The notes under the pieces: generated by a model | The model's input: the letters and a program-made list of their open reading frames with translations, nothing else | Databases searched by the model: none | What the model was told of the DNA's origin: nothing | Program-made: the position numbers and the translations under genes | From: Chloroflexus sp. Y-396-1 | GTDB lineage: Bacteria; Chloroflexota; Chloroflexia; Chloroflexales; Chloroflexaceae | Reading direction: 5' to 3' | DNA length: 64,000 bases | Assembly: GCF_000516515.1 (NCBI RefSeq) | Contig: NZ_KI911784.1 | Location: 4,502,633 to 4,566,632, forward strand | Shown here: positions 19,296 through 37,224 of the stretch, piece by piece | Numbering within the stretch: the first letter of the stretch is position 1 | Layout of the letters: each line of letters begins with the position of its first letter

Positions 19296-19688
19296 GAGAC
19301 ACTCCCTCTGCCCAAAATACCTGTCTCTATCATGACGAACGCAGCCTGAAACCGGTTCCCGCGCATCATCGAGCGAGAATGAAACGCGGCTAAGTGCACA
19401 CACCGCCGATGATCAGAGGATTGCGCACCGGGCACAACCACCACTCCATGAGGAGGCATGAGATAGGAACCCAGCGCGTTTCACCTCACTCAATGACCTT
19501 GCTGCTTCCTACTAGCATCCTTCCTTTCTGTGTGGGAGCGGAAGGAGGCAGGTTGGGGAAACCGCGATCACGCTCCTCGCCCTTCTCTGCATCATCATGG
19601 CAGGGAGAGAAAGAACGACGAAAAGCGCTGTAGCCCACAGAAGCGAATCGCCACGGTGTACCGCTATCGCCCGCCAATACACTGAACC
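19296..19688. other. Intergenic region with repeat remnant
   Basis: 393 bp between two minus-strand lipoprotein genes. It contains the GGGAGCGGAAGG word (19534-19545) shared with the hairpin at 3558-3590, here within a weaker hairpin (TCCTTCC paired with GGAAGGA). No supported gene is seen. Confidence 0.5.
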
Positions 19689-20639
19689 TTACTGCTGGGC
19701 AAGCGTGGTCACATCAACCAAAATCTCGATCTTACCCGCAGCCTCAGCCGCCTTCCGCAACTCAGCTACCCACGGCAGAAACGTCGTACTAAACGCCTCT
19801 TGGCCAGCAGGCGTCTCCAGAAATGCCCGATCATCAAACGAGCGTACCTGTGGCCCTTCAATAACTTCAATGATATGCCAGCCAAAATCGGTCTGCACAA
19901 GGCGCAACTCACCTGGCGCCATACTAAAGACCGCTTCATCAAACGGCGCTACATAAACTCCACGTGGCGCCCAGCCCAGATCACCCCCTTGCGCCGCCGA
20001 TCCCGGATCATCAGAACGTGCCCGCGCCAGAGCCGCAAAATCGGCTCCTCTTTGTAATTCGGCTAAAATTGCCTCTGCGGTTGCCTTCCGACTTGCGGCC
20101 TCTTCAGGCATAGCAGCAACCAGAATATGGCGAGCGCGTACCTGTTCAGCCGTGGTATACTTCAATAACATCTGCTCGATCAACTGATCGCGACCCAAGA
20201 GACGGCGCAACTCTTGCACATCGGCAATCTTATTCTCTCGCAAGAAGACCTGAAATTGGGCATCATCACCACCAGCCTGGGCTAGCCGCAACTGCTCAAC
20301 CTGCCCATCAATGACCGACTCATCAATCGTCGCGCCCTCTGCCAGAGCCGCCTGCACAACCAGTTCGACATCGATCATCTGATCAAGAATTGCCTTAACA
20401 TCACTGTTCGGCAGATAAAACCGATCAAAATCACGCCGCAAAATAAAGGCATCCCCCACTCGTGCAATCGCATCCGCCGGCGCCGAAGATGATTGGGTCG
20501 GCGTTGATGACCCCGGAGGCACGTTCGTCGTTGGGGAACCGGCAACGGTCGGGCCTGACGGCGCACCACAGGCAGTCAACATCAGAATCACGACTAATCC
20601 GATCCACACCGTATGCCGAAGCAACCAGTTCGTACTCAC
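19689..20639 (-). CDS. Parvulin-type peptidyl-prolyl isomerase lipoprotein (PrsA/SurA-like foldase)
   Basis: A 316-residue protein. The signal peptide ends in a lipobox (LMLTACG), followed by a Ser/Thr/Pro linker. The SurA_N-like helical domain (about 55-165) precedes a parvulin domain: VRARHILVA, FAALARARSDDPGSAAQGGDLGW and FGWHIIEVIEG are the family landmarks. It helps fold exported proteins outside the membrane. Translation starts at GTG with AAGGAG 6-7 nt upstream. Confidence 0.9.
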   Translation of the reverse strand: MSTNWLLRHTVWIGLVVILMLTACGAPSGPTVAGSPTTNVPPGSSTPTQSSSAPADAIARVGDAFILRRDFDRFYLPNSDVKAILDQMIDVELVVQAALAEGATIDESVIDGQVEQLRLAQAGGDDAQFQVFLRENKIADVQELRRLLGRDQLIEQMLLKYTTAEQVRARHILVAAMPEEAASRKATAEAILAELQRGADFAALARARSDDPGSAAQGGDLGWAPRGVYVAPFDEAVFSMAPGELRLVQTDFGWHIIEVIEGPQVRSFDDRAFLETPAGQEAFSTTFLPWVAELRKAAEAAGKIEILVDVTTLAQQ

Positions 20640-21314
20640 AAAGAACTCCTTCTAAACCACCAACATGGTGCTCACAATTGACGCACCATAACACGGGTAT
20701 CGTACCACATGTTCCTGAGCGGCAGGCGGCTATCTTCCGTTTTGCATACCGCCAGGAAACGGTATCACACACCTGTGCTGCACCCTGAAGGGTTTGGCAA
20801 TTCAGATGCTGCAACAAGGTGGTTGTTTCAATGAAGAACAAGCTACAGGGTGAATATCTGAAATACACGATGAATCCAGTATACTCGCCAAGGTCTTTCG
20901 CAAGTGGAACAAAGAAAGGAAATCGCTTCTCCATTTCACTTCTCTTACCTAAGCTCGTATCTGGTTTTCTTCATTATCGTTATTGGATAAGAAAAGAACG
21001 TTGAAAAGACTTAAATGTCTACAGATCTCCTGGTCAATCACCGAACAAGGTGGTATAATGGTCTATATGACGTCATAAGTGCGTATCATGAGGCTTTCGC
21101 CGAAACAGTCACTTCTTGGACAAGTGCCAGAGCACAATCGGATGACGGCAGAGAAATTGTTTCAGAAGTGGCGAGGGAAGATATTACCCGTCCGTAAGCA
21201 TATTTCTCAGGCATGAATGGAAATACGAGAAAGATTTGATCTACTTTGTTATGTATCACTCACACCCATATCAGGAATTTCAAACTCAATAAGATATATC
21301 AAGGTATACTATTG
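20640..21314. other. Upstream region of the ssp cassette
   Basis: 675 bp between the divergently oriented foldase gene and sspB. It contains the probable cassette promoter at 21031-21059. A 60-codon frame at 21015-21197 overlaps that promoter and has no recognisable features. No transposase or integrase remnant is recognised. Confidence 0.55.
21031..21059 (+). promoter_or_regulatory. Probable promoter of the ssp cassette
   Basis: TGGTCA (21031-21036), 17-bp spacer, perfect TATAAT (21054-21059). It predicts a leader of about 250 nt to sspB. This is the only good promoter seen before the six-gene unit. Confidence 0.5.
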
Positions 21315-22241
21315 ATGAACACACAACTTCCAGACACTGTTAGCTTCAGTGGACACGAAACCTTTACCCTACGTAGTAATTGGCTCAAGAAGGCATTCGA
21401 TCTGCTTAAAGAAACGCCTGACTTGTTCCGCTGCCAGGACGCTTTCGTCAGGTTGGGCGTTGGCAAAAACATGGCTCAAGCCATTCGATTCTGGGCTACT
21501 GCAACTAGGCTCTTTAGGAGAACAGAAAACGGAAACTTAGAGCCAACCAGGCTTGGTGAGGAACTCCTCGCGGATAACGGTTGGGATCCGTTTCTCGTTA
21601 CCGCAACATCGCACTGGCTGATTCATTATCAGATCACCTCTCGCCCAAATATGACATTTACGTGGTACTATACATTTAATATTCTTAAACGTGGTGAATT
21701 TACGATTCATTCATTATCAGAAAAAATCAGTGAATATCTAGTTCAGATAGATCGCAAAAAACCTTCAAAAACTACTTTAGAACGAGATATTGATTGTATG
21801 ATTCGCTGTTATACTCGACCGTCAACTACGCAGCCAACGTTTGCCGAAGATGCGTTACATTGTCCATTAAATGATCTCTATCTTGTTCAAACTCTCTCTG
21901 ATCAGACAGGTACTCATTATTACTTGACGAGTGGTTCCCAACCATCTTTACCTGATGCTCTAGTTGCATTCGCGGCATTAGAACAAGCCCGTTACCTCAA
22001 GCGTCATACGCTTACCTTCAACGAGCTCGCTTACGGTGAGCGCTCACCGGGACGAATCTTCCGCCTTGATGAGGATAGCCTGCTTAGCCGATTATTCCAG
22101 TTTGAAGAATTGACGAACGGCCAGGCAACATATAGTGATAGTGGAGGCATTCGTCAAATTATGTGGCGAACTATCGACGATCCAGAGCTTGATTGGTCAC
22201 TCCTTCGAATTGCATTCTCGCGTGAAACCACCTATGCTTGA
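21315..22241 (+). CDS. sspB: DUF4007 family protein, SspB-like (DNA phosphorothioation)
   Basis: 308 residues opening MNTQLPDTVSFSGHETFTLR. The SGHETFTLR...WLKKAFD segment, followed by LGVGKNMAQAIRFWATA, matches the DUF4007 family as I recall it. In Ssp systems SspB is a DUF4007 protein with DNA-nicking activity needed to place sulfur in one DNA strand. The nicking role here is by analogy. The start at ATG 21315 is chosen over a TTG-initiated frame at 21246: AAGG lies 10 nt upstream and the SGHETF block normally sits near the N-terminus. It overlaps sspC by 8 bp. It is the first gene of the six-gene cassette. Confidence 0.82.
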   Translation: MNTQLPDTVSFSGHETFTLRSNWLKKAFDLLKETPDLFRCQDAFVRLGVGKNMAQAIRFWATATRLFRRTENGNLEPTRLGEELLADNGWDPFLVTATSHWLIHYQITSRPNMTFTWYYTFNILKRGEFTIHSLSEKISEYLVQIDRKKPSKTTLERDIDCMIRCYTRPSTTQPTFAEDALHCPLNDLYLVQTLSDQTGTHYYLTSGSQPSLPDALVAFAALEQARYLKRHTLTFNELAYGERSPGRIFRLDEDSLLSRLFQFEELTNGQATYSDSGGIRQIMWRTIDDPELDWSLLRIAFSRETTYA

Positions 22242-25200
22242 TCTGATTTCCATATCGTCACGATTTACCCGATCGGTTCACATTCATCATGACTTTCGAG
22301 ATTTACGCCATCTTCTTGATGGTTATGTGGTAACTCCACTTATTCAACAAACCACAATTCGTATTCTTCGCGGTCTACATTCCGAAAATCGCGAGCGTGC
22401 TTTTTCGATCATTGGCCCTTTCGGAGCAGGTAAATCGGCGTTTGCCTTGTTTCTTGCTCACTTTTTGCAACGTAATGTCCAGTCGCGACACGTGTTACTC
22501 TCATCTTTGCATGCCGATAGTAATGTATTCCCGGTTGATGTTCCTTCCTTGTTGGCAGTCACTGTGCCAGGGAATAACACATCGCTCCGGTATGCTATTG
22601 TTCAGGCGCTTGTCGATGCCCTAAAACGTTCACGAATCAGGATACCCGAAACTATTCGCCAGGCTGGTAAGGAAGCCCTTGATCCGGTAAAAACCGCTGA
22701 GCTTGTTGAACAAACTGCCCACTATCTCAAGGAGCAAGGCCAATTCAAGGGAATTGTGTTGATCATTGACGAGTTGGGTCAGTACCTCGATTATGCAGCC
22801 CGTCATAATGATGAACGAGATCTCTTCGTACTACAAACACTGGCCGAAACCGCAGCGCGCAGTGGTGAAACACCGATCCTTGTCGTAACCATTCTCCACC
22901 AGGCATTTGAACACTACACTACCTACGCAGGTCCACGACGGCGGATTGAGTGGGCTAAGGTTCAGGGACGATTTGTTGATCTGGCATTTCAAGAACCAAC
23001 CAGCCAGATGGTACGCTTAATCGCTGCAGCATTGCGACCTGGAGGGAATATTGACCCACTCATGTCGCAACGACGGCAGTGGGCAGCACGGATTGCACCA
23101 ATGACCGAGGAACTAGGTTTACGCCCGATTGAGATAAACTACACCGAGTGGCAACAGATTATTGCCGACAGCTTTCCTCTCCACCCAATGACGTTGCTTG
23201 CGTTACCAGGCATTGTTCGTCAACTTGCGCAAAACGAACGTTCGTTGTTTGCATTCCTGAGTTCAGATGAACCATGGGGTCTCCGCGACGTGTTGGCTCA
23301 GGCAAAAGAGGATGACATTCCTATCTATCGATTGACACATCTGTTCTCGTATATCGAAACTAACTTGGGTGCCGGCTTGTTTACGCGCGGTCGAGGCCGC
23401 CGTTGGGCAGAACTAGTTGAGGCACGTACCGCTCTATCGAGCCGTGATCCGGTCTGCCTTGATACACTAACCGTGATCGGGGTGCTCGGTGCTCTTGAGC
23501 GTGCAGCCGGTATGCGCGCTTGTCAGGCGCATATCGCCTTTGCCCTCACTGACGACCCAACAGATCTAGCAATTGCTCGTGCACTTGACATCTTGCAGAC
23601 ACACAAACATATCGTTTATCGTCGGTATCGAGACAGCTTCGTACTTTGGGAAGGGAGTGATCTCGATCTCGAGACACTTACTCAAAATGTACGACGTTCG
23701 CTTACGGAACGATACACGCTTTGCGAACTACTTCACCGATATACTGATATTACACCACGCATCGCCCGCCAACACAGTTATCGCACGGGTGCAACAAGAG
23801 TCTTCGCTATACGTTATATCGACGTCAGTCAACTCACTCCTTCTCTACCGCTAACGACTGAACACGATGGCGAAATATTACACATCGTCCCGGCAAATGA
23901 TGAAGAGCATTCACAGGCATACCAATGGGCAACAGACGCGGCACGGGCACATGAAACAGCACGAGTTATTGTTATTCCCAAACGCATCGACGAATTCTAT
24001 GATTTGCTCCTTGAAGCCGCAGCATTACGAGTTATTCTTGAAGAACAGCCAGAGTTAGAACATGACCGTGTTGCCCGGCGTGAGGTCAATAGCCGGTTAC
24101 TTGAAGTAGAACAGGATCTCCGGGCTGTCATTCGTAGAACCTTTGGTTTCCAAAATGATTGGTTTTATCGGGGACAAGCTGTTGCCATTACCAATGAGCG
24201 GCACATTGACAACCTACTTTCTCAGGCTGCTGACAACACATACGCACTGAGCCCACGGATCTGGAATGAACTGATCGTGCGCGATGTCATCTCATCGGCG
24301 GCAGCTAAAGCACGACGAGATCTGATAGCAGCACTCCTGACACACTCAGAGCAAGAAATGTTTGGCCTCGTCGGTTATCCACCCGAACGAGCTATCTACG
24401 CTAGCATCTTTCAAGCGGGGGGTCTCCATCATCAGCGATCTGATGGAACCTGGGAGATCGGTCCTCCTCTCGACCCCGATCCACTCCATTTACGACCGGT
24501 CTGGCAGGCCTTGGAAGACAGATTACGGTCAGCAACAACCACACCACTGCAACTCACTGAATTATATGCCCATATACAACAACCACCTTACGGAGTAAAG
24601 GCGGGCTTACTACCAATACTGTTTGTTGCTTTCTATGTCGCTCAGGCCGGTGAATTGATGTTCTACGAGCATGGCAACTATGTACCGATGCCTGATATGG
24701 CAATGTTTGAGCGGCTATTAGCCCGACCTTCTTATTTTGCAGTGAGACTTTGTCAGGCCAGAGGAATCCGCTTACAAGTCTATCGAAAACTTGCCGCGGT
24801 GTTCGCTCCGCAGGCACTTCAACAACGCATTCAACCCGCACTCCTAGCGGTGTCTATCCGGATTTTGCGCATCTATCATCAGCTCCCGGTGTATAGTAAA
24901 CAGACAAAGCAGATAAGTCATCTTGCCCAATCGATTCGTGCAGCACTTAAGGAGGCTCGTGCACCGGATGAATTACTCTTTGTTCTCTTACCACAGGCAT
25001 GTCAACTACAGCCATTCAGTGATACTGACCAAGATGATGCAACAACTATCGACCTGTTTCTTTCATATCTACAACAGGGGCTAAAAGAGCTTCAGCAAGC
25101 GTTCCCAATGTTGCTGCAAACAATCGCGCAACATACGATGCAGGCCTTTCATCTCAGCGGGGATCCGGCACAAGCCCATTTCTTACTCTTGCATCGCTAC

Positions 25201-25635
25201 CAACGAATTGCACATCTTATCAACGAACCGCAACTCTACGCGCTTGGCGCTCGTTTGGAAACTGCACCTCCAAACGGTGAGGCCTGGTCTACTAGTCTGG
25301 CAGCACTCGTCGTGAAACGACCACCGGATCAGTGGCAAGATGATGATCTACCGGTGTTTCAGGCTGCGATCCGTGAGCTTGCACAACGTTTTGCTGCTGC
25401 TGAAGAACTTGCGCTCTATGCTACACAAACCTCTTCGCACCATGATATGATACGAATTAGTCTTACGAATGGTAGAAGAGAGTTGAGTCGTATTGTTCAT
25501 CTCCAGCGTCATCCGCAGATTCAAACAGTACGAGATGAGATACGAAAGATTCTATATGGTACAAATAGCCTCAGTAAAGAACAACAGATTAGCGCACTTA
25601 TTGAGATATTGCAATCATTGTTACAGGATGAATAG
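22234..25635 (+). CDS. sspC: Large P-loop ATPase, SspC-like
   Basis: 1,133 residues. Walker A is GPFGAGKS at about residues 61-68 and Walker B is GIVLIIDELGQYLDY with Asp-Glu at about 179-180, giving an AAA/STAND-like ATPase module at the N-terminus. The remaining roughly 800 residues are helical and not recognised. SspC is the ATPase of the SspBCD modification complex, but BrxC and DUF6079-type ATPases look similar at this level. The position between a DUF4007 gene and a PAPS-reductase-like gene decides for SspC. The start at 22234 overlaps the sspB stop, a typical coupling; the 99 bp upstream in frame lie inside sspB. Confidence 0.8.
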   Translation: MLDLISISSRFTRSVHIHHDFRDLRHLLDGYVVTPLIQQTTIRILRGLHSENRERAFSIIGPFGAGKSAFALFLAHFLQRNVQSRHVLLSSLHADSNVFPVDVPSLLAVTVPGNNTSLRYAIVQALVDALKRSRIRIPETIRQAGKEALDPVKTAELVEQTAHYLKEQGQFKGIVLIIDELGQYLDYAARHNDERDLFVLQTLAETAARSGETPILVVTILHQAFEHYTTYAGPRRRIEWAKVQGRFVDLAFQEPTSQMVRLIAAALRPGGNIDPLMSQRRQWAARIAPMTEELGLRPIEINYTEWQQIIADSFPLHPMTLLALPGIVRQLAQNERSLFAFLSSDEPWGLRDVLAQAKEDDIPIYRLTHLFSYIETNLGAGLFTRGRGRRWAELVEARTALSSRDPVCLDTLTVIGVLGALERAAGMRACQAHIAFALTDDPTDLAIARALDILQTHKHIVYRRYRDSFVLWEGSDLDLETLTQNVRRSLTERYTLCELLHRYTDITPRIARQHSYRTGATRVFAIRYIDVSQLTPSLPLTTEHDGEILHIVPANDEEHSQAYQWATDAARAHETARVIVIPKRIDEFYDLLLEAAALRVILEEQPELEHDRVARREVNSRLLEVEQDLRAVIRRTFGFQNDWFYRGQAVAITNERHIDNLLSQAADNTYALSPRIWNELIVRDVISSAAAKARRDLIAALLTHSEQEMFGLVGYPPERAIYASIFQAGGLHHQRSDGTWEIGPPLDPDPLHLRPVWQALEDRLRSATTTPLQLTELYAHIQQPPYGVKAGLLPILFVAFYVAQAGELMFYEHGNYVPMPDMAMFERLLARPSYFAVRLCQARGIRLQVYRKLAAVFAPQALQQRIQPALLAVSIRILRIYHQLPVYSKQTKQISHLAQSIRAALKEARAPDELLFVLLPQACQLQPFSDTDQDDATTIDLFLSYLQQGLKELQQAFPMLLQTIAQHTMQAFHLSGDPAQAHFLLLHRYQRIAHLINEPQLYALGARLETAPPNGEAWSTSLAALVVKRPPDQWQDDDLPVFQAAIRELAQRFAAAEELALYATQTSSHHDMIRISLTNGRRELSRIVHLQRHPQIQTVRDEIRKILYGTNSLSKEQQISALIEILQSLLQDE

Positions 25636-25648
25636 GAGAATATAGTAT

Positions 25649-26482
25649 ATGCCATCTCAACGAGATATTATCGAGCAATGGGCAGCTCGTCCTGGCCGAC
25701 ACATTGTCAACTTGAGTGGTGGGAAAGACAGCACTGCACTTGCAATTTTTCTTCACGATAAGATCCCACAGCTCGAATATGTATTCTGTGATACCCACAA
25801 AGAGCTGCCAGAAACGTATGCGTATCTTGACCGTTTAGAATCATTTTTACAAAAGAAGATTACAAAACTTAATCCAGAGCGAGGATTTGATCACTGGCTC
25901 GATATATACGGTGGTATGTTGCCATCAGCGCAGGTACGCTGGTGCACTCGTAAGCTGAAGATTGAACCGTTTGAGGCCTATATCGGTAATGATCTGGTTT
26001 GGAGTTACATTGGTATTCGGGCGGATGAAGGTCGTAATGGATATATTTCAACTAAACCCAATGTTCATCCCGTATATCCATTCAAAGAACTCGGTATGAC
26101 CATCACTGATATTGAAGCAATTCTGGAAAACAGTGGGTTAGGACTTCCGGAATACTACAAATGGCGTCAACGAAGTGGCTGTTTCTTCTGCTTTTTCCAA
26201 CGTACTGGTGAGTGGATTGGCCTAAAGGAACATCACCCTGATCTCTTCGAGCAAGCAAAGGCATATGAGTCAGAACGAGGTGGAGAGCATTTTTACTGGC
26301 GTCAGCGCGAAAGTTTAGCAGAATTAGAGAAACCCGAACGAGTTGCTCAGATAAAGCGTGAACACGCATTTCGTCTCGAACAAGAGCGAAAGAGGCGACC
26401 AAACCGTCCGCTGATAGAGCTTTTGGGGGCAATACTTGATGCCGAGGATGACGAAAAGGGATGTGATATTTGTCATTTGTGA
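25649..26482 (+). CDS. sspD: PAPS-reductase-like ATP pyrophosphatase, SspD-like sulfur transferase
   Basis: 277 residues with the PP-loop SGGKDS at residues 23-28, then FCDTHKELPET (the N-type adenine site of PAPS reductases) and Cys99 in WCTRKLK. Paired cysteines Cys178/Cys181 (GCFFC) and Cys272/Cys275 (CDIC at the extreme C-terminus) could bind an iron-sulfur cluster, as in DndC. In Ssp systems SspD activates the DNA backbone phosphate with ATP for sulfur insertion. At 277 residues it is well short of typical DndC, which favours SspD. It lies 13 bp after sspC and 6 bp before the next gene. Confidence 0.85.
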   Translation: MPSQRDIIEQWAARPGRHIVNLSGGKDSTALAIFLHDKIPQLEYVFCDTHKELPETYAYLDRLESFLQKKITKLNPERGFDHWLDIYGGMLPSAQVRWCTRKLKIEPFEAYIGNDLVWSYIGIRADEGRNGYISTKPNVHPVYPFKELGMTITDIEAILENSGLGLPEYYKWRQRSGCFFCFFQRTGEWIGLKEHHPDLFEQAKAYESERGGEHFYWRQRESLAELEKPERVAQIKREHAFRLEQERKRRPNRPLIELLGAILDAEDDEKGCDICHL

Positions 26483-26488
26483 GGTTGA

Positions 26489-28255
26489 ATGATGAAGAGA
26501 TACGTAAATTCATTTGTTGAGTATCTCAATCGCTACACAACCGCCTCACCTGATCATGAGGCGGCCTTCGATGAATTCATCGCTGGTGCACCACCGCCCG
26601 CTGCCGGCCCGCTCCAACTGACCACAAAGTTAGAACGTTTTCTTCAACAACTATACCAACGCGATCAACCGCCGTCTGTGATTTTGACAGGAAATGCTGG
26701 TGATGGAAAAACATACCTTTGTCGTCGTGTTGCTTCTATTATCTTGCAGTCGAATCAACCTATTGATTGGGATAAACTGATAGATCAACCGATTCGGCAG
26801 AACGGCCAATCGCTTTTCATCATTAAGGATTTGTCGGAACTGGATGAAAAAAAGGGTAAAGAAGTATTACAACGCTTAGCACGCACGTTACGTGAGCCTA
26901 CGTGCCGGGATCGTTATCTAATTGCGGCTAATGAAGGGCGGTTGCGAGCATTGTTAGCTGAGGTGAGTGAACCTGAACTTGAAACAGAGATCCGTAAACA
27001 ACTTGATCAAGAGCATCTCGAGATTGATCAAAAACTTCTTGTTATCAATCTGACCCGTGTAGCAACCTCCACCTTCATCTTCAAAGCCCTTGAATGGATG
27101 ACCGATTCTCGACACTGGCGTGATTGCCACCATTGTCCGGTGCAAACCAAATGTCCTATTTTCTATAACGCTCAACGTATAGCGGATAAGATCGTTGCGC
27201 ATAGAATACAACAACTTTATAAAATTCTTGAAGAAACCGGTTCCCACATTACATTCCGTGATATGTTGATCCATCTGGCATACACCATTAGTGGTGGAAA
27301 ACGGTGTGAGGATATCCAAACCGGGATTCAGGAGCGCAAAGATCTCTCATCATTGGCGTACTACGAAAATATCTTTGGTCGCGCTGACGATGAAGGTTTT
27401 AGGCGCAAAGCTCATGTCATTCAACTGCTTGATCTGCTTGAAATAGGTCAACATTCCGTTTTTGCGATAGATGAATTTATCGTTAGCGGGGGTGAGACAA
27501 CAGAGGAACAACGTGAGCACCAGCAGATATTTAGCGAAACAGTGGATGTACACTTTAAATATTTCCGGCAAATTCAACGTAAGTACCTCACTGATAACGA
27601 GCATGAGCAAGAGATTATTCGATGGCTACCACACTGCCGGAGAAAGATATTCTTTGAGAGTAGCCTCTTCCACTATGGACAGCTCCTGCCATTTCGTTTC
27701 TTCGATCAGTACCAATCTTTGCTAAGCCAGCCAAATAAGCGTCATGAGGAAACCCTCAGAATTTTTGTAAAGGGGTTGAACCGTTCATTCACACGATTGT
27801 ACCTTAACGAAACTGAATATCTTTACGTAACGGCTCGATATCTACATAGTATCAATCAACCGCATCCATTAGTATTATTAAAGATACCAATTATCAATTT
27901 ATCTTTTTCAATAATTCCCAGTTCCTATGATTACCTTGATTGCTCTGAGGTACAATTATACCTCGAAATAGCCCCGCCGGCTCAGGTTCGCAGAAACGTC
28001 GATTCGATACGCTGGTCATTTGGGTTACTACAGTTTGAGTACGTACTGCGGATCGCAATGGGTGGTCATCCTTCAGTTCTTTCAGCCCAATGTGAATTGG
28101 ATATTCGTCGCTTAAAGGATCGGCTGATCAGTACGTTCGTTATCGAAACGGCGAATAATAACACCTCAAGTATTGAATTTTTCGTTCCTAACCGATATCG
28201 TTACGAATTACGTAAACTTGGTATTGATGAACAGGGCAAGATAACTACGGTATAA
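26489..28255 (+). CDS. sspF: P-loop ATPase of the restriction module, SspF-like (DptF-like)
   Basis: 588 residues. Walker A is GNAGDGKT at about 68-75, and a possible Walker-B-like segment is LFIIKDLSELDE. A Cys cluster CHHCPVQTKC (Cys213, Cys216, Cys222) suggests a zinc site. The rest is unrecognised. The place in the locus (after sspD, before an unknown gene and an FtsK-type giant) matches sspF of SspBCD-SspFGH and dptF of Dnd loci. Both have an ATPase with an N-terminal 'GDGK' loop. It probably helps attack DNA that lacks phosphorothioate. Two adjacent Met codons are possible starts, with GAGG just upstream. Confidence 0.72.
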   Translation: MMKRYVNSFVEYLNRYTTASPDHEAAFDEFIAGAPPPAAGPLQLTTKLERFLQQLYQRDQPPSVILTGNAGDGKTYLCRRVASIILQSNQPIDWDKLIDQPIRQNGQSLFIIKDLSELDEKKGKEVLQRLARTLREPTCRDRYLIAANEGRLRALLAEVSEPELETEIRKQLDQEHLEIDQKLLVINLTRVATSTFIFKALEWMTDSRHWRDCHHCPVQTKCPIFYNAQRIADKIVAHRIQQLYKILEETGSHITFRDMLIHLAYTISGGKRCEDIQTGIQERKDLSSLAYYENIFGRADDEGFRRKAHVIQLLDLLEIGQHSVFAIDEFIVSGGETTEEQREHQQIFSETVDVHFKYFRQIQRKYLTDNEHEQEIIRWLPHCRRKIFFESSLFHYGQLLPFRFFDQYQSLLSQPNKRHEETLRIFVKGLNRSFTRLYLNETEYLYVTARYLHSINQPHPLVLLKIPIINLSFSIIPSSYDYLDCSEVQLYLEIAPPAQVRRNVDSIRWSFGLLQFEYVLRIAMGGHPSVLSAQCELDIRRLKDRLISTFVIETANNNTSSIEFFVPNRYRYELRKLGIDEQGKITTV

Positions 28256-28276
28256 TTCACACAGTTGGAGGAGTAT

Positions 28277-29920
28277 ATGCATGTTTATGGAAACTACGAT
28301 AAAAATGCACAATATACTCCTGAGACCATAATTTGGGGCCATCGTCTACGTGAAGGTCAGGAATGGATTGAGTATTTGCTCGAATTCCTAGCAGTACTAG
28401 CCGGGTATGATTACAACTTTGGCGTCTATACAGATGAATATATTGTCCCAAAACGACTTGGTTTGCGAAGATTTGTCTTCTACGACGAAAACGAAAAGAG
28501 CCCAGATCTACGGGATGAGGACGCGGTAAAGAAACTAAAAGAACGACTCGCTCATTATGTACAGGCTAACGGTCATCCAGTAGAGGACATCATTCAGCAA
28601 ATACGCTCACTCATCCGTTCATTCGCGATTATTGAAAAGAATAGATCATGGTATGCAAAAAGTCTATTTCCTGTTCACGAAGAGTTCATTCTTTGGGAGG
28701 CACTGCGAAAAGGATCGAAAAGGAATACATATCGTGATGATCTTACCCAACTTTCCTTGCATGAGCTTGATAAAGGAATTGAATTTTTCGCCCGTAATTT
28801 CTTTGCTCGTGGTGGTGAGCTGTACTATCTGATGATTTCAGCCGGAACAGTAACCAAACCGTTATGGCGAACAGGGATTGCCAGCCGCTTCAAAACATTG
28901 CTTAGAGACAGCCACTGGACGCTCGGCTCAATTGCCTCGATCATTAATCAGGCATGGGTTGACCTGACAAAATCGGATGGAAAAGCAGAAGATATTGTGA
29001 AGGGCAAGCCTGGCTGGTTACCAGACCCAACCTGTCCCCTCTATACATACTTTGCCGAAGACCTCTATAATCTGTTAGATAATCAGCTCGATGAACTTGA
29101 GTGTCTCGAATTAGTCGCTCATCTTATCTGTTTTCATATCATCATTTATATTTATCACCGTGCTCATCCAAAAAACTGCTCTGATTCTACGCTGCACCAA
29201 TCAGATCGTTGCCTTCAAAACTGTCGGCCGGAAATCCTCATCGATCTCCCAGGTGATAATGATGGGCAAATTATTCGATCAATATCAGCCAACTTGCTTA
29301 AACGACATGAACGCTGGCAGATCGATCAAGTGCGCCATTTCGTTCAGAACAGAGTCACATTGTCAATTCACCAACACCCTAATGCAAAACCAATCGATAT
29401 TGTCGAGAGATTGGCCGATGAATATTTCGGTAATATCCGTCAAACGATGCGAAGTGAATTTCAGCAGTCGATTGGTAAATTAAGGCAACGTGCTGCTAAG
29501 ATGAAGAATGAAGAGATTATTGAGGAACTTATCAATCTGATGTACGACGCACTGGCTAGTAACTTTCAGCGTCACTTTCTAGGCATTCACCGCCGACTGG
29601 GGCGAGCCATTGGCTTGATTGCTCCACAGCGTGGGCCACAACCTCGCTTCGTTATAGGCGATACGCTTCTGAAAACTCTGACAATGGTTATCGTCCCGTC
29701 AGGTGGAACACTTCCTTTCAGTAAATTTCTTGAACATCTGTATCAACGTTATGGCGTTATTATCGGACCAGATGAAGCAAAACAAACCGGCTTAATAAAT
29801 CGTTTTGCGGTCAATGAAGGAGCTTTTGCGCGTAATCGTGACCGCTTCCTCAACCGTATGAAATACGCTGGCTTGCTAACCCAATACTCAGATGCAACAG
29901 CTATGGTTCATCGACCATAA
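28277..29920 (+). CDS. sspG: Uncharacterised restriction-module protein, SspG-like (DptG-like)
   Basis: 547 residues with no motif I can name. It is rich in charged helices with a His/Cys-containing middle part (HRAHPKNCSDSTLHQSDRCLQNC), and the C-terminal region resembles a winged-helix-like fold (LEHLYQRYGVIIGPDEAKQ). The assignment rests on gene order: between the SspF-type ATPase and the FtsK-type protein, where sspG/dptG sits. A TTG-initiated longer frame begins at 28265, but GGAGGAG lies 5-6 nt before ATG 28277, which decides the start. Confidence 0.6.
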   Translation: MHVYGNYDKNAQYTPETIIWGHRLREGQEWIEYLLEFLAVLAGYDYNFGVYTDEYIVPKRLGLRRFVFYDENEKSPDLRDEDAVKKLKERLAHYVQANGHPVEDIIQQIRSLIRSFAIIEKNRSWYAKSLFPVHEEFILWEALRKGSKRNTYRDDLTQLSLHELDKGIEFFARNFFARGGELYYLMISAGTVTKPLWRTGIASRFKTLLRDSHWTLGSIASIINQAWVDLTKSDGKAEDIVKGKPGWLPDPTCPLYTYFAEDLYNLLDNQLDELECLELVAHLICFHIIIYIYHRAHPKNCSDSTLHQSDRCLQNCRPEILIDLPGDNDGQIIRSISANLLKRHERWQIDQVRHFVQNRVTLSIHQHPNAKPIDIVERLADEYFGNIRQTMRSEFQQSIGKLRQRAAKMKNEEIIEELINLMYDALASNFQRHFLGIHRRLGRAIGLIAPQRGPQPRFVIGDTLLKTLTMVIVPSGGTLPFSKFLEHLYQRYGVIIGPDEAKQTGLINRFAVNEGAFARNRDRFLNRMKYAGLLTQYSDATAMVHRP

Positions 29921-29940
29921 CGAGATTGAGGAACCGTAAT

Positions 29941-32900
29941 ATGAAGGAAAAAGTTAGCCAGGTCATTGCCAATACAATTATCCGATGTATCAGCAATGTT
30001 CAACCCTCCCAACAACATCACCGTATATTTATTCGTGTAGAAGATTTTGACACCGCAGTCTATCAGAACATTTTGAAGCATTTGCGTAATCGTCAAAAAA
30101 TTAATGATCATCACGTTTTAATTCGTAGCACCAGCCCAATCCCTGGTTTTGAGCAATATAACCTCGAACCTGATCGCTCGGCCACCTGGTATCGTAATCA
30201 CTTACAACCAGGATATATGCTTATCCTTATTTTTAATCAGCGTACAAGCGACGCACAGAGTCTCAAAGACTTGTATACTATCAATCCAGTTACACTTACA
30301 ACAAAGGAATTAAGTGAATTGATTGAATCAAGTATTCAAAATTATCAATACAGCAACGAAGAAAAAGAATCCATCATTCATTTCATTCAAATTCAGTTAC
30401 GAAAGGCCGGGATTATACCACCCCTTGAGCACATCGTTTCGTTTCTAATTGAGCTAGACCGACTTCTCGTCGAGAGTTATCGGCTTTCCGAAGCAATTGC
30501 TCATGCGCTCCCGCAACTCCATCTGTTCCGTTGCAACCAACTAGCGCAGCGACTGCAGACGGGAGGTAGTAGCAAGCTCTTGCGCGAAGTGTATCTCGCT
30601 TCTCGGATAGGGATGGAAGTCATAGACGAACCAAAAGAGAAATCTTATTTATTCAATTTGGAAACAGCTCATTTCAGTGATCAGAGTGCTTTGGGAGGAT
30701 TATCATCTGAGGTTAAAAAGAAACTTTTACGAGACTTTATAACAGGAAAGCTGATTGACGACCCTAAACGTCGGCAAGAAGTATTCCAGATCGATTGGGA
30801 AGAAGTACAGCAGATTATAAAACCACGTAAAAACAGGATCGATGTCGAACAAATTGTTCGTGAGCTGGAAGAAGCTAAGATAGAACATCCTGATACGAAT
30901 AAGGATATTGAAGAGTTAATCAGACAACTACAGTCTGGTTCAGACATTGATAGCCAGCTCGTCGAGGATGTCTTGAAAGCAATAGGTGAACTCCTTTCAC
31001 CCGAAGTTCGCACCGCACTGCGCAAATTGCTGCGACCACGTCCGACCAGAAATGTAGATTTTCTCAATGGTTTAATGCATCTGCTGCTTGAATTGCAAGC
31101 TATTTATCAATCAAATCTTACAAACAACTGCCGCATCTGCGTGAAGTTTGTCGAACCTGATCGATTTGATAACACGTCTATCGAAGCTGCACAGGTATTT
31201 CGATATTTGTACGGCGGTATTGAGCAGGTTATAACCAATGTTACATGGGATCTAAACGCATTGTGGAAACTTGCATCGCGTGAGAACATCGATAGTGAAG
31301 AAGATGATGAATCACAAAAACTCAAGCATGAGATAAAAGAAGAGCTTACGTTTCAGGTTGCTATTCGCGATTCAGTTAATGATAAATCCATTGGATCTGC
31401 GAAATTGATTTGGGAATATCATTCTGACAGTATCCAATCAATCACGGCAAAGGCCTTAGAACACGAATGGAGACGCATTCAAGCTGGAGATATACGAATT
31501 CCTACGTACAAAGTAGGACAGACTACAACAAAGCTGTTACATATCGATCTTCTTCGTCCAATAACAACCCTAGGGGCCTGGTATCAAAATGCAGCTGATA
31601 TACAAAAAGACCTACATGCACTAAAGTTTCCTGAGCAAATTACTCATCCAATTTTTCAGGCTCTTCACAGGCTGGAACAAGATTGGAGAAATTTTATTGA
31701 GCAATCACAGAACGGGTTATTTTCCTCTCAGATCGTTCATCTGAGTCAGTCTTACCAGCACCTATTGCAGACGATGATCCTTCATGCTTCAAAGAGTAGG
31801 TATCGCTCTCTATTCCATGTTATCAACCAATCCTGGATGATACGGCAACCAGGCGCTTCTTCCTGGGCAATTATGCCCCTCTTTCATCCGATCAAACTAG
31901 ACTGGTGGTTGCAAAGAGCACAGCTATTTCACGAATTGATCCAACACATGTTTTACGACGATCCGCCATCAATTGCAGTAGATTACAAGATTGTCCAACG
32001 TGAAATAAGCAACGTATACAGTTCGAGCAACGTACCACCCGTCGTCATGCATGATCGAGCACGCGGAAAGAACGATTGGCTACTAGCAAGTGCAGAAGCC
32101 TATGGCTATGAATTGTTCGTGAGTCTGCAGCAACACGACGAGGCTACTTCGTTTGATTATCTGGGAAATGCAGATGAGCAACGAGTAATTACTGATCAAG
32201 TTATCGATACGATAACGAATATTGTCCACGATTATATCGAGATCTATCCATTCGCTCAGAATGGGCTTAGGATATTGCTTCTCGAGTGTCGGAGTAGTGA
32301 TTTACCGATTATGCTTCTAGAACGTATAAAGGCCACGAACTCTCGTCAAGAAAATTCCTGGCGCCTTCATGTGGTAGTACATACCTCAAGGCACGGAGCG
32401 ACTCTTTTCCACCAGATTGATAAATGGCTGGAAGAAGCGCTATCTGTTCAGGAGAGCCTTTCTTATGTTCCTTCAATAACTATCGATGTGTTAGAGTGTC
32501 CGCTAGACGAGATCTTTAAACATGTTAAAGCAGTAGATATCGTATCCATTGTTGATCTCTTCTCACAGGACACAAAAAACTTAAGTTGCCGACTAACAGA
32601 AAACAATGAAGAATTATCTCATACAAACTGGTTTACAACGCCCATCCGCCCTGATCCATTAGAGGAAGGACAGATCTATCGACGTTTCCAACTTACCCCT
32701 ACACAAAAGACATCGCTTATGCGACTATTCTTATTGAGTCAGTATGTTGGGATTGCTGAACCCGGTGATGAATTGCCAGATATTCGCTCCGATATTCAGT
32801 TGTTCTATAACCAATCATTGGAAAAATGGCAAGATTTGCTTAAACAGCTTCATCAACATGCTCATTGGGTGGTGTGCTATGATCGAGCGGTTGATCGATT

Positions 32901-35121
32901 CTTACTACAAGCAACCTGTGATGACGCTCAAATCATCCGTTATGCCCTGGGTTTAGGGAAACAACGCTTATATCATTTGACGGTTTCTTCTTCAGGCCAC
33001 ACCCAGCAGATTGTTGTTCAGCGTCTGGCAAACCGTTTGCACGAAATGCTTCCTCTAGTCGATTACCAACGTTGTCAAAATATCGCGAAACGTCTGGCCC
33101 ATGAAGCAAATCGTATTTCAGGAGACATTGTACTTCGAGCTGCCGGGCCAGGTGCATTTCTCAATGAATTGATCGGCCTAGTAGCAACGATTACGAAGAC
33201 CGAACAACTATTTCAACAGCAACATCCTCATGCACTCTTGCTCTGGCTTTCACTTGATAATTTCAAGCACTGGTTTCCAAGTGATAAAACAAGGAAAACT
33301 CCAGACTTGCTGCTGATCGGATTAGCGAATGAAGCCGATCAGTGTACTATCCATTTGCAGATTATTGAGTCTCAGTGTATCCACAGTGGTGCGTTAGCTC
33401 GTGAAAAGCGTGATGCACAATTACAGGTACGGAATGGAGTAAATCAGTTGATTCGAGCCTTTGCGCCGGGTGCTCATCATCTTGATGCACCTTATTGGTA
33501 TGACCAGCTTTATCGGGCAATAGCAGGAAATCTACGGATTGGCGACGATCAACACGCAATCTGGAAACTTGTGCAGCGTTGTTTACCGGTCGGCGATTTT
33601 CAACTTTTCACCAGCGGACATAGCTGGATATTTTGCTACGATGCACAGGTGGGTGACACTAATGTTATTGAACAACCATTTAGTTCTGCTTCTGAAGCAC
33701 CAGAAGTTCCGTTAACTGAACATCTTTGCGGACGAAATGAACTCTTCGCAGTCTTAGGTAGTCTCGTTAACCAGGCGATCATACCTGATCCATTCATTAA
33801 TGAGTCCGTTGATCGGGGAGAACTATCAACAAAAGGTGATAATGTAACCGTTGGAGCCCTACCTGTAACGTCCGAAGCTGTAGGGGATCAGTATGAACCA
33901 TCAATCCTACCTCTCGTGGTTGCTGATACATCAGCTACTCCACTAGCGGACAATGCTGCAAGGGATCAGTATGAATCACCATCAATCTCACCATTCGTAG
34001 TTGCCGATACACGTGCTAATCCGCTGAGTGTCGAGCGTGAATGGCTTAATCAGAAAGCATCGGAAGTAGAACAAGCACTACGCCGTCGTGGGGTGCAGTT
34101 GTATGCTATCAACCCTGCCGACGCTGATATAGGTCCCAGTGTTGTACGATTTAAGTTTCGACTTAAACCCAACCAGCAACTTAAACGATTGAAGGCAATG
34201 ATTGACGATCTGGCGCGTGACTTAAAATTGGAACGACCACCGTTTATCGACAATGTACCCGGAACGGATTTTGTCGGTATCGATATACCTCGAAGTAGTC
34301 GTGAAGTTGTTGATCTTCAACCGTTACTCAGCTTGCTTCCTGAACCGAAGCCAGCAGAATTACCCATCATTATCGGTGTATCACCAAACGGAAGGCCCGT
34401 CATTGAAGACCTTGCCGAGTTTCCCCATCTGTTAGTGGCGGGTACCACAAAGTCTGGCAAATCGGTACTCTTACGTAATGTACTGATCAGTTTGCTCTCA
34501 GTCTATCGCCCTGGTCAAATTGAATTTCTGATTATTGATCCTAAACAAACCGATTTTGTTCAGTTTACTAAACTTCCGTTCTTGCGCAAGGGCAAGGTGA
34601 TCGTAGAACGGCGTGCAGCACGTGAAGCGTTACTAGAGTTAGCATACGAAGAAATGCCCCGTCGGCAGCGCCATATTGCTCATCGTAGCATGAAGATTAA
34701 GAACTTCAACCAGCGTTACCCGGCAGAAGCCTTACCACCGATAGTTGCAATTATTGATGAATATGGACTGCTGACAAGCTTAATGAATAAGAAAGAACGG
34801 GAGATGTTTGAACAAGACCTGAGTGCTCTTGCCGCTGCCGCACGTTCTGTAGGTATCCATCTCATCATCGCCACCCAACATCCAAGTGCCGAAGTCATTA
34901 CTCCGACGATTAAGGCGAATCTAGATGCTCGTATTGCCTTGCGGGTCGCTTCATCAATCTACTCACGGGTAGTTTTGGAGACTCAGGGAGCTGAGCACTT
35001 ACTCGGCCACGGCGATATGCTCTTCCGACGACCGGATGGAAGTATTGTTCGATTACAAGCACCTTTCATTGACGAAGATAAGATTCCTGAATTGCTACGA
35101 ACAATTGAGGCTCGCTCCTGA
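29941..35121 (+). CDS. sspH: Giant protein with C-terminal FtsK/HerA-type ATPase, SspH-like (DptH-like)
   Basis: 1,726 residues. The first 1,300 are not recognised and probably form a scaffold or nuclease part. The C-terminal 350 residues are an FtsK/SpoIIIE-type motor: a segment like the FtsK alpha/beta portion (GPSVVRFKFRLKPN), Walker A GTTKSGKS at 1501-1508, PKQTDFVQF, Walker B IIDEYG at 1604-1609 with Asp1606-Glu1607, and the sensor segment IHLIIATQHPS. DndH/DptH proteins have the same size and layout. It presumably translocates along or loads onto DNA lacking phosphorothioate. Between the parts lies a Ser/Pro-rich linker with an in-frame tandem 26-residue duplication. GAGG 9 nt before ATG 29941 supports the start. 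Confidence 0.75.
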   Translation: MKEKVSQVIANTIIRCISNVQPSQQHHRIFIRVEDFDTAVYQNILKHLRNRQKINDHHVLIRSTSPIPGFEQYNLEPDRSATWYRNHLQPGYMLILIFNQRTSDAQSLKDLYTINPVTLTTKELSELIESSIQNYQYSNEEKESIIHFIQIQLRKAGIIPPLEHIVSFLIELDRLLVESYRLSEAIAHALPQLHLFRCNQLAQRLQTGGSSKLLREVYLASRIGMEVIDEPKEKSYLFNLETAHFSDQSALGGLSSEVKKKLLRDFITGKLIDDPKRRQEVFQIDWEEVQQIIKPRKNRIDVEQIVRELEEAKIEHPDTNKDIEELIRQLQSGSDIDSQLVEDVLKAIGELLSPEVRTALRKLLRPRPTRNVDFLNGLMHLLLELQAIYQSNLTNNCRICVKFVEPDRFDNTSIEAAQVFRYLYGGIEQVITNVTWDLNALWKLASRENIDSEEDDESQKLKHEIKEELTFQVAIRDSVNDKSIGSAKLIWEYHSDSIQSITAKALEHEWRRIQAGDIRIPTYKVGQTTTKLLHIDLLRPITTLGAWYQNAADIQKDLHALKFPEQITHPIFQALHRLEQDWRNFIEQSQNGLFSSQIVHLSQSYQHLLQTMILHASKSRYRSLFHVINQSWMIRQPGASSWAIMPLFHPIKLDWWLQRAQLFHELIQHMFYDDPPSIAVDYKIVQREISNVYSSSNVPPVVMHDRARGKNDWLLASAEAYGYELFVSLQQHDEATSFDYLGNADEQRVITDQVIDTITNIVHDYIEIYPFAQNGLRILLLECRSSDLPIMLLERIKATNSRQENSWRLHVVVHTSRHGATLFHQIDKWLEEALSVQESLSYVPSITIDVLECPLDEIFKHVKAVDIVSIVDLFSQDTKNLSCRLTENNEELSHTNWFTTPIRPDPLEEGQIYRRFQLTPTQKTSLMRLFLLSQYVGIAEPGDELPDIRSDIQLFYNQSLEKWQDLLKQLHQHAHWVVCYDRAVDRFLLQATCDDAQIIRYALGLGKQRLYHLTVSSSGHTQQIVVQRLANRLHEMLPLVDYQRCQNIAKRLAHEANRISGDIVLRAAGPGAFLNELIGLVATITKTEQLFQQQHPHALLLWLSLDNFKHWFPSDKTRKTPDLLLIGLANEADQCTIHLQIIESQCIHSGALAREKRDAQLQVRNGVNQLIRAFAPGAHHLDAPYWYDQLYRAIAGNLRIGDDQHAIWKLVQRCLPVGDFQLFTSGHSWIFCYDAQVGDTNVIEQPFSSASEAPEVPLTEHLCGRNELFAVLGSLVNQAIIPDPFINESVDRGELSTKGDNVTVGALPVTSEAVGDQYEPSILPLVVADTSATPLADNAARDQYESPSISPFVVADTRANPLSVEREWLNQKASEVEQALRRRGVQLYAINPADADIGPSVVRFKFRLKPNQQLKRLKAMIDDLARDLKLERPPFIDNVPGTDFVGIDIPRSSREVVDLQPLLSLLPEPKPAELPIIIGVSPNGRPVIEDLAEFPHLLVAGTTKSGKSVLLRNVLISLLSVYRPGQIEFLIIDPKQTDFVQFTKLPFLRKGKVIVERRAAREALLELAYEEMPRRQRHIAHRSMKIKNFNQRYPAEALPPIVAIIDEYGLLTSLMNKKEREMFEQDLSALAAAARSVGIHLIIATQHPSAEVITPTIKANLDARIALRVASSIYSRVVLETQGAEHLLGHGDMLFRRPDGSIVRLQAPFIDEDKIPELLRTIEARS
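33886..34026 (+). repeat. In-frame tandem duplication inside sspH
   Basis: Two 78-bp units (33886-33963 and 33964 onward) encode similar 26-residue segments beginning DQYE and sharing P-VVADT-A-PL. They sit in the linker just before the ATPase domain, around residues 1316 and 1342. Synonymous differences show that the copies have already diverged. Confidence 0.75.
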
Positions 35122-35351
35122 GGAGTTTGTGACACGGTGACACGGTGACAAAATAGATTCAGACACGGTCTCAACCGGTGGCAGGAATCGGTTCCTCCTC
35201 GTCACTTGTATACCAGCATCAGGCATATATTGTGGTAGCATCTGTTGGCAACAACATCCATCCTCAGCCATAGGAACAACGACCAGCCAGAACTATTATG
35301 CGGCATCACTTCTCTTATTCGTCGCCTCGCTAACTATACGTAGTCTCACCA

Positions 35352-35462
35352 TCTCAGTACCCACCTTCATCACATCGTCCTCACCACGCGGTTTGTTTTG
35401 TAACCGCAGTCGTATTTGTTTCGAGGTCTCAGTACCCACCCTCACCACATCGTCCTCACCAC
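35352..35462. repeat. Two 36-bp direct repeats separated by 39 bp
   Basis: The copies at 35352-35387 and 35427-35462 differ at two positions and begin TCTCAGTACCCACC. The spacer holds a GCGGTT/AACCGC hairpin. Only two copies exist and no cas gene is near, so this is not called CRISPR. Confidence 0.7.
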
Positions 35463-35467
35463 TGTCG

Positions 35468-35476
35468 TGGTACAAT
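35468..35476 (+). promoter_or_regulatory. Possible extended -10 promoter for the MFS gene
   Basis: TGGTACAAT is an extended -10 (TGnTACAAT) starting about 95 nt before the MFS start. No -35 is visible. Confidence 0.3.
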
Positions 35477-35570
35477 AGCAACGCCGGGCAGACTGAAATG
35501 TTATAAGTACTCTTGACAAGGTGGGGTTGTGCATACTCACCGACAGCTATGGTGAGGTAAAGGAGCTTGC

Positions 35571-36911
35571 ATGGCAGTAGTAGCATCCGCAATTGACAAT
35601 CGTCGGGAACAGATCGGCTGGTACTTCTACGATTGGGCAAATTCGGCATTTTCGACCACGGTCGTCACCGTCTTTTTGGGGCCGTACCTGACTTCAATTG
35701 CCCGCAATGCGGCTGATACGAATGGGTTTGTCTACCCATTTGGGATTCCGGTGGCGGCCGGATCATTTTTTCCCTATGTTGTGTCGCTCTCAGTACTACT
35801 ACAGGTCTTTTTCCTCCCGATCCTAGGGGCTATCGCCGATTATTCCAACGCCCGTAAGCAAATGCTGGCTATCTTTGCTTACACAGGTGCGTTTGCAACG
35901 ATGGGCCTCTACTTTCTCGAGGGTACAAACTATTTGTTGGGTGGAATCTTATTTCTGATTGCGAATCTCACTTTCGGGGCCTCGATTGTCTTTTATAACG
36001 CCTTTTTGCCGGATATTGCCAGCGCTGAACGGCGTGACGCGGTTTCTTCGCAGGGATGGGCCCTTGGGTATCTCGGTGGTGGGTTACTACTGGCCGCCAA
36101 TCTGGTCTTCTTCCTCAATGCCGCGTCGTTCGGAGTAGAGAGTGCGATGGCAGTACGCATCAGTCTAGTGTCGGCGGGGATGTGGTGGGCAATCTTTACC
36201 CTGATTCCGATGTGGACACTGCGGAATCGGGGCGCAATTCGCCAGTTGCCGCCAGGCGAAAACTACTTGACAGTCGGTTTTCGTCAGTTAGCCCATACCT
36301 TTCGCCAGATGCGCGGCTATCCACAGACGCTGCTATTTCTGGCCGCCTATCTGCTCTACAACGACGGTATTCAGGCTGTTATTGCCCTCGCGGCTCAATT
36401 CGGTGCCGAAGAACTCGGCATTGGGGAGTCTACTCGGATTGCGACCATTTTGATGGTGCAGTTTGTAGCCTTTGTTGGTGCGTTGATCTTCGGTACCCTG
36501 GCGTCTCGCCTCGGCTCGAAGCGTGTGCTGTTGGGTAGTTTGGTGATCTGGACGCTGGTGGTCAGTTATGCTTACGTTATGCCAGCTAACAACGAAGCAC
36601 AGTTCGTTGCTCTGGGTGCAGCAATCGCACTCGTATTGGGCGGAAGCCAGGCGATCAGCCGTTCGCTCTTCTCATTGATGATCCCCAAAGGCCAGGAAGC
36701 AGAATACTTCAGTCTATACGAGGTTGGTGAGCGTGGTACAAGCTGGCTCGCACCGCTCCTGTTTGGGATTGCGTACCAGCTTACCGGGAGCTATCGCATC
36801 GCGATTGTGTCACTAATCATCTTCTTTATCAGCGGATTTCTCCTGCTGTTGTTCGTCAACGTGCGCAGGGCAGCCGCCGAGGCCGGAAATGAGGCACCGG
36901 CGCACGTATGA
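35571..36911 (+). CDS. MFS transporter, UMF1 family
   Basis: 446 residues with about 12 hydrophobic segments. The N-terminus IGWYFYDWANSAFSTTVVTVF is the hallmark of the UMF1/Atg22-like branch of the major facilitator superfamily (YDWANSA motif). Loop residues ADYSNARKQML and ASRLGSKRVLLG are MFS-type. It is an integral membrane exporter of unknown substrate; amino acids are the guess from the yeast vacuolar relatives. AAAGGAG lies 6 nt before the ATG. Confidence 0.88.
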   Translation: MAVVASAIDNRREQIGWYFYDWANSAFSTTVVTVFLGPYLTSIARNAADTNGFVYPFGIPVAAGSFFPYVVSLSVLLQVFFLPILGAIADYSNARKQMLAIFAYTGAFATMGLYFLEGTNYLLGGILFLIANLTFGASIVFYNAFLPDIASAERRDAVSSQGWALGYLGGGLLLAANLVFFLNAASFGVESAMAVRISLVSAGMWWAIFTLIPMWTLRNRGAIRQLPPGENYLTVGFRQLAHTFRQMRGYPQTLLFLAAYLLYNDGIQAVIALAAQFGAEELGIGESTRIATILMVQFVAFVGALIFGTLASRLGSKRVLLGSLVIWTLVVSYAYVMPANNEAQFVALGAAIALVLGGSQAISRSLFSLMIPKGQEAEYFSLYEVGERGTSWLAPLLFGIAYQLTGSYRIAIVSLIIFFISGFLLLLFVNVRRAAAEAGNEAPAHV

Positions 36912-36925
36912 TGGGCCGTCACCAG

Positions 36926-36948
36926 GGGGCAACCTATGGAGTTGCCCC
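36926..36948. terminator. Hairpin between convergent genes
   Basis: GGGGCAAC (36926-36933) pairs with GTTGCCCC (36941-36948). The right arm ends at the TAG stop of the minus-strand gene. There is no clear U run, so termination is likely but not certain. Confidence 0.45.
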
Positions 36949-37214
36949 TATGATTGTGGGCGACGACGGGTATTTTTCCGACCTCGTTGCACCATGATCT
37001 GCCATGCTTTATCCGGGTCTATCATTGTACGCAATTGTTGATCGCTGATCCGATGGGCCTGTCGTTCGTTGAGTTCGGCAATCTCACGGAGATGCTCTTC
37101 ATCTTCCGGTGAAATGTTTACCTGCTCACGCCAATACCGCCAGGCCGCAAATCCGATCAGTCCAAGCAGAACGGTCGTTACGACTGCAATCAGGATTCCG
37201 CCGATCTGTTCCAT
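36948..37214 (-). CDS. Small single-pass membrane protein, unknown function
   Basis: 88 residues: one N-terminal membrane helix (IGGILIAVVTTVLLGLIGFAAW) and a charged cytoplasmic tail (EDEEHLREIAELNERQ...RRRPQS). It is not recognised. It starts 10 bp after the stop of the upstream hybrid kinase with AGAGGTG before the ATG, so it is very probably cotranscribed with it and may be an accessory of that kinase. Confidence 0.7.
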   Translation of the reverse strand: MEQIGGILIAVVTTVLLGLIGFAAWRYWREQVNISPEDEEHLREIAELNERQAHRISDQQLRTMIDPDKAWQIMVQRGRKNTRRRPQS

Positions 37215-37224
37215 AGGGCACCTC

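Follow-up and report, generated by a model that had tools for sequence, protein, structure and literature searches.

The six-gene locus and its family assignment

The stretch analysed here (the window) comprises 64,000 nucleotides of Chloroflexus sp. Y-396-1, at positions 4502633-4566632 of a 4.89-Mb single-contig genome. It contains a run of six genes, here named sspB, sspC, sspD, sspF, sspG and sspH after the families that they match. Reading of the open reading frames of the window established their order: six successive plus-strand frames between 21315 and 35121, all intact and with no internal stops. The genes are closely packed. If the likely starts are used, the overlap of sspB with sspC is 8 bp, and gaps of 13 bp (sspC-sspD) and 6 bp (sspD-sspF) follow. 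The gap before sspG is 9 bp from the TTG start or 21 bp from the likely ATG, and the gap before sspH is 5 or 20 bp, respectively.

Pfam assigned the sspB product to DUF4007 (255 bits), the sspC product to the AAA ATPases and the sspD product, which carries an SGGKDS motif, to the PAPS reductases. SspF contains GNAGDGKT and gave P-loop matches below the cut-off only, the scan of SspG returned no domain, and SspH contains FtsK alpha and FtsK_SpoIIIE. Family membership was established with PADLOC, where the best match of all six products is an Ssp family (Table 1). The SspH match spans amino acids 167-1727 and the entire profile, and because the score is so high, this SspH or a near-identical protein was probably the source of the profile. 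In PDB sequence searches, the solved SspB structures 6juf and 6lb9 match the cassette SspB (E 7e-39), and chance-level matches only were obtained with SspF, SspG and the SspH nuclease-like block. The SGGKDS motif and cysteines 99, 178, 181, 272 and 275 are kept in 8/8 aligned SspD sequences, and SspD also has weak DndC and BrxP matches. DUF4007 and SspF are each matched once in the genome, within the cassette, and PAPS reductase twice, one of these matches being SspD.

The genes sspB, sspC and sspD adjoin as a writer operon. They are followed by adjoining sspF, sspG and sspH, with a Walker A motif in SspF and an FtsK-like C-terminus in SspH. We conclude, with a probability of roughly 0.87, that the six genes form an SspBCD-SspFGH phosphorothioation restriction cassette. 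This type had been proposed in an earlier sequence-only reading, and it is borne out by the PADLOC profiles of all six products and by gene order in relatives. The same reading had listed the products as a DUF4007 protein, a P-loop ATPase, an SGGKDS protein, a GNAGDGKT protein, an unknown and an FtsK-like giant, packed with overlaps or gaps of 5-35 bp; the domain readings confirm the products, and the 8-bp overlap and gaps of 5-21 bp agree with the packing. It had also named a profile search as a check, in which all six best matches proved to be Ssp and not BREX or unrelated families. Pairing of SspBCD with SspFGH was said to be known from other bacteria and is described in PMC8092258 (mBio 2021), and the cassette belongs to this type.

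Compared by description with SspABCD-SspFGH of Vibrio anguillarum FF-93, as given in the available text of PMC8092258, the cassette has six matching products, sspBCD beside sspFGH, the Walker A motif in SspF and the FtsK-like SspH C-terminus. The desulfurase is likewise encoded outside, IscS having been used with FF-93 sspBCD. Unlike FF-93, the window has Gln at SspH position 1150, and the host is a Chloroflexus. The cassette is ordinary in kind, its one odd feature being this changed residue in the probable DNA-cutting part, and it adds one phototrophic, green gliding host to a known system.

Table 1. Features of the ssp cassette (positions in the window)
Feature	Position	Strand	Remarks
Promoter-like site TGGTCA-17-TATAAT, TG before second hexamer	21031..21059	+	10/12 consensus; upstream of sspB
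sspB, DUF4007 protein	21315..22241	+	alternative start TTG 21246; PADLOC SspB 291 bits
sspC, large AAA/P-loop ATPase	22234..25635	+	alternative start GTG 22135; PADLOC SspC 1178 bits
sspD, PP-loop/PAPS-reductase-like sulphur transferase	25649..26482	+	SGGKDS, conserved cysteines; PADLOC SspD 377 bits
sspF, P-loop protein with GNAGDGKT	26489..28255	+	PADLOC SspF 946 bits
sspG, predicted DndG-like fold	28265..29920	+	TTG start; ATG 28277 likely; PADLOC SspG 166 bits
sspH, giant protein	29926..35121	+	TTG start; ATG 29941 likely; PADLOC SspH 3778 bits
SspH Rossmann methyltransferase-like fold (predicted), amino acids 746-1025	32161..33000	+	model; 2eg5_E Z 16.7, rmsd 3.3, 189 aligned
SspH PD-(D/E)XK-like block (putative), amino acids 1065-1170	33118..33435	+	E1081, D1127, E1148 invariant; Q1150
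SspH FtsK/SpoIIIE motor, amino acids 1477-1654	34354..34887	+	Walker A GTTKSGKS

The sequence-only reading had placed all six genes behind one promoter. The promoter-like site upstream of sspB is indeed present, but the region has no more sites of this type than shuffled sequence would give (12 found, 26.4 expected), so that a single promoter is plausible only. In an Rfam scan, tRNA alone was matched.

The putative nuclease of SspH and position 1150

The structure of SspH was predicted for amino acids 540-1285 with 17 sequences (mean predicted local distance difference test, pLDDT, 80.7; predicted template modelling score, pTM, 0.84). Methyltransferase structures match model residues 207-486. 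Foldseek matches of the model are modest, with a single match at E < 0.001 (6kpd_C, a plant SCL3 chain), methyltransferases from 1.2e-3 and low TM-scores. After this part, the model has a helix (540-560, model numbering), strands (565-570, 589-597 and 600-613), a helix (615-639) and a strand (687-698). This order of helix, strands, helix and strand fits that of a PD-(D/E)XK core. Model residues E542, D588 and E609-x-Q611 (E1081, D1127, E1148 and Q1150 of the protein) lie at or on the expected elements. The structures matched by the model all fall on its methyltransferase part, and the PD-(D/E)XK-like block fits by secondary-structure order alone. From motif and model, we infer that this block is the nuclease; the available text of PMC8092258 names no nuclease domain for SspF, SspG or SspH.

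Several observations weigh against the assignment to SspBCD-SspFGH. No cysteine desulfurase gene was found in the 64-kb window; the genome has 14 PF00266 matches, all of them outside it. Homologs of SspB, SspC and SspD also occur in type 4 BREX, according to the portion of PMC12839542 available, and SspC matches one BrxC profile at 590 bits, compared to 1178 for the best SspC profile. In addition, position 1150 is Lys in 27/27 other SspH sequences and Gln in the window SspH only, which thereby lacks the Lys of the (D/E)XK motif. Because of this difference from all the others, the restriction half of the cassette may be altered or dead.

A sulphur source for the cassette may be found elsewhere in the genome. 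The five best PF00266 matches were scanned with NCBIfam, which gave a SufS, a NifS/IscS/DndA-like enzyme, a desulfurase-like protein, a phosphoserine transaminase and one protein without a match at E <= 1e-60. The NifS/IscS/DndA-like enzyme (G000:C1:1806200-1807291) scores 503.9 bits, under the NifS cut-off of 530.75, and SufS is likewise encoded outside the window; either could serve Ssp. According to the text of PMC8092258 available, an IscS ortholog is able to replace SspA. In the mechanism that we propose, a housekeeping NifS/IscS-like desulfurase would take the place of SspA and hand sulphur to SspD; the DNA-binding nickase SspB, together with SspC, would direct the chemistry to target sites, and sulphur would be inserted into a single DNA strand. 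In the strains studied, Ssp systems put phosphorothioate into one strand of a short motif, CCA. SspF (P-loop), SspG (DndG-like) and SspH (methyltransferase-like, PD-(D/E)XK-like, FtsK motor) would gather on unmarked DNA, translocate along it and damage it. Single-strand marking, damage to unmarked DNA and protection against phage would thus be expected here by analogy with published work on relatives.

A variant of the main reading is an Ssp cassette with an inactive nuclease, in which marking stays and SspFGH is either without cutting and decaying, or acts as a motor or roadblock only. Behind it stands a comparison of 28 SspH sequences; the taxa represented include Chloroflexota, Alpha- and Betaproteobacteria, a cyanobacterium and a bacteroidete. 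L030, with its FtsK end only, is excluded, and repeated contigs among L032-L047 are counted once; L073 equals L054 within the block, so that the 27 others are 26 distinct sequences, some pairs of which are more than 90% alike. Besides Q1150, a short insert ahead of the motif II Asp is present in the window SspH and absent from close relatives. It is also in keeping with this variant that no frame is interrupted and that the Walker motifs of the FtsK part seem undamaged. On the other hand, the acidic residues of motifs I-III (E1081, D1127 and E1148) are retained in the window SspH, as in all 28 sequences. Gln at this position is tolerated by some restriction enzymes, e.g. BglII, which counts against inactivation. 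The codon at 33373-33375 is CAG, a single base away from the Lys codon AAG, and an assembly error is possible because the species is represented by one assembly. An inactive nuclease is possible, though less likely than not. As a natural variant, this Gln copy lends itself to testing whether defence needs cutting.

Relation to DndFGH and other known systems

The SspG model (pLDDT 79.3, pTM 0.83) resembles the DndG crystal structure 7exx of the DndABCDE-DndFGH (DptFGH) system, with a VIA Z of 16.1 over 374 residues and a root-mean-square deviation (rmsd) of 7.6; the next best structure has Z 5.6. It is the sole strong PDB match of the model (Foldseek probability 1.00, E 0.015). The match shows a common fold only, and the high rmsd reflects either a different arrangement of the domains or flaws in the model. 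On its C-terminal side, DndH has an inactive methyltransferase, a restriction endonuclease (REase) and a HerA/FtsK part, after other domains (PMC10853773, section 21), and the modelled part of SspH with its FtsK end has a predicted domain string in the same C-terminal order. Fold comparison with Dnd proteins covers SspG and SspH amino acids 540-1285, plus the FtsK end. The two systems differ in the writer, DndBCDE versus SspBCD here, and have no sequence-family match at E <= 0.1.

SspFGH and DndFGH have been described in print, in the text available, as without significant sequence identity. PMC8092258 notes that each attacker includes one protein with Walker A and another that is translocase-like, and PMC12707154 refers in passing to sspFGH as 'homologs' of dndFGH. 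The likeness of SspG to DndG was not found spelled out in searches of the open literature. Judged from the models, SspFGH and DndFGH look like diverged relatives, which would place within a single architecture two attackers said to lack significant sequence identity with each other. The SspG-DndG match and the SspH domain string also suggest where the nuclease of SspFGH is located, and point to E1081, D1127, E1148 and residue 1150 for testing.

In a reading that combines these observations, cutting would be lost through K1150Q and the motor and DNA-binding parts kept, giving mark-gated translocation or blockade without cleavage, and SspFGH would be, family-wide, a diverged branch of the DndFGH machine. 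We consider this combination unlikely.

The sequence-only reading had offered as an alternative a hybrid in which an Ssp-type writer is combined with a Dnd/Dpt-type (DptFGH-like) attacker. The SspG fold match and the correspondence of the modelled SspH part and FtsK end to the published DndH string speak for it. By sequence, however, the three attackers are assigned to SspF, SspG and SspH, and the six proteins matched no Dnd-associated or Dpt restriction family in PADLOC or NCBIfam at E <= 0.1; NCBIfam includes the Dnd-associated restriction family TIGR03237, and PADLOC was not checked for models named DptF-H. The fold likeness is a property of the family, and not of the cassette's copy. The hybrid is therefore not supported and is very improbable; the Dpt link fails at the level of sequence families and holds, for predicted folds, in the resemblance of SspG to DndG. 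TIGR03237 also had no match in the rest of the genome and was recovered from 0/80 relatives; one of 400 genomes of the phylum matched weakly. As the family was silent in 14/14 control genomes, its absence outside the six proteins counts little.

Type 4 BREX or another BrxC system shares DUF4007, BrxC/SspC and the PAPS reductase with the cassette (PMC12839542, in the portion available), but no PglZ or BrxL was found among the six proteins (PADLOC and Pfam), no PglZ in 10 flanking frames (Pfam), and SspF, SspG and SspH follow in place of BREX genes, so that this reading hardly merits belief.

Similarity to MADS is limited to a weak match of SspG to MAD7 (44.7 bits, far below the cut-off of 410) and a match of mad8 to SspH (94 bits, motor only), and Pfam found no methyltransferase in the six cassette proteins or in 10 frames flanking them. 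The SspABCD-SspE system has the SspBCD writer in common, but the cassette here contains no SspE gene. Two DUF262-DUF1524 genes (GmrSD-type, PADLOC Orf5/HEC-06) are found elsewhere in the genome (G000:C1:929679-930359 and 4145644-4146324; L075 and L076). They are weakly SspE-like (78 and 74 bits, versus 817 and 732 for the best families), and their products could be type IV enzymes.

Relatives and genomic setting

The order B-C-D-F-G-H was found in 4/10 relative regions read (L022, L023, L025 and L026), and part of it beside a contig end in three more (L024, L029 and L031). Two of the ten have SspH without detectable SspF or SspG, and one an SspH-like FtsK end only. Seven further loci have C(part)-D-F-G-H (L034 and L035), F-G-H (L040 and L042), G-H (L041), H only (L037; short contigs), or F-G-H with B and C on the opposite strand (L045). 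An SspF query search of genome contigs returned no relatives; a scan with the SspH nuclease-block alignment gave 16 loci, nine of them contigs among L022-L031. The SspH block matched 14/400 Chloroflexota genomes, and DUF4007 is present in 28/61 genomes searched (own included) and in 3/8 of the genus.

The cassette genes have a G+C content of 43-49%, compared to 54-56% (13000-20499) and 49-54% (35500-41499) in the flanks. Low G+C and the occurrence of DUF4007 in 3/8 genus genomes suggest horizontal gain. Neighbouring genes encode an SMC protein, a DNA primase, a peptidyl-prolyl isomerase (PPIase) and a major facilitator superfamily (MFS) transporter. The flanking PPIase and MFS genes are present in 8/8 genus genomes and were not found together in the seven others, so no clean empty site was seen; they lie ∼173 kb apart in G003, ∼0.8 Mb apart in G005 and on separate contigs in five drafts, where adjacency across breaks is possible. 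Neither an integrase among 10 flanking frames nor, among the matches listed, another defence system in the scanned flanking frames was found. A PADLOC MzaA match (45255-46451) is a sigma-70 factor and a mad3 match (9611-13174) is an SMC protein. The edges (20600-21400 and 35000-35700) have no repeat upstream and one 36-bp direct pair downstream, at 35352-35462 between sspH and the MFS gene (94% alike, spacing 75).

Among 72,556 plasmid records, tblastn gave 39 matches with the SspF query and 33 with the SspH block, six of the latter being opened. On plasmids of Chlorohelix, Azospirillum and Hymenobacter, a PAPS reductase gene stands directly before a trio of genes, the last of which encodes an FtsK giant; on those of Methylibium and Aminobacter, the trio lies opposite a divergent set of PAPS reductase, hypothetical and DUF4007 genes. 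The first and third genes were matched by tblastn (SspF, SspH block), whereas only its position identifies the middle gene as SspG. On the Pseudanabaena plasmid ABRG53b (L057, ∼1163-1943), an SspD match lies in two pieces with no listed gene, in an incomplete gene table, and this SspD may be disrupted. Genes for a PemK/MazF toxin and a Uma2 nuclease are nearby.

Some relatives of SspH have other neighbours. In Candidatus Viridilinea mediisalina (L027, 3369-16474), an SspH with the full nuclease motif has no SspF or SspG match within 19 kb and adjoins two SNF2-type helicase genes (BrxH/DrmD-like) on the opposite strand. At the contig end of a Roseiflexus metagenome-assembled genome (L028, 4308-11040), a TPR-repeat protein precedes SspH, in the place of SspG. 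In L030 (4294-14080, G032:C160), proteins of 776 and 520 amino acids without a Pfam or PADLOC match at E <= 0.01 precede a protein of 1955 amino acids that is SspH-like only in the C-terminal FtsK alpha and FtsK end (52% identity), and this three-gene run is possibly an undescribed FtsK-based defence module.

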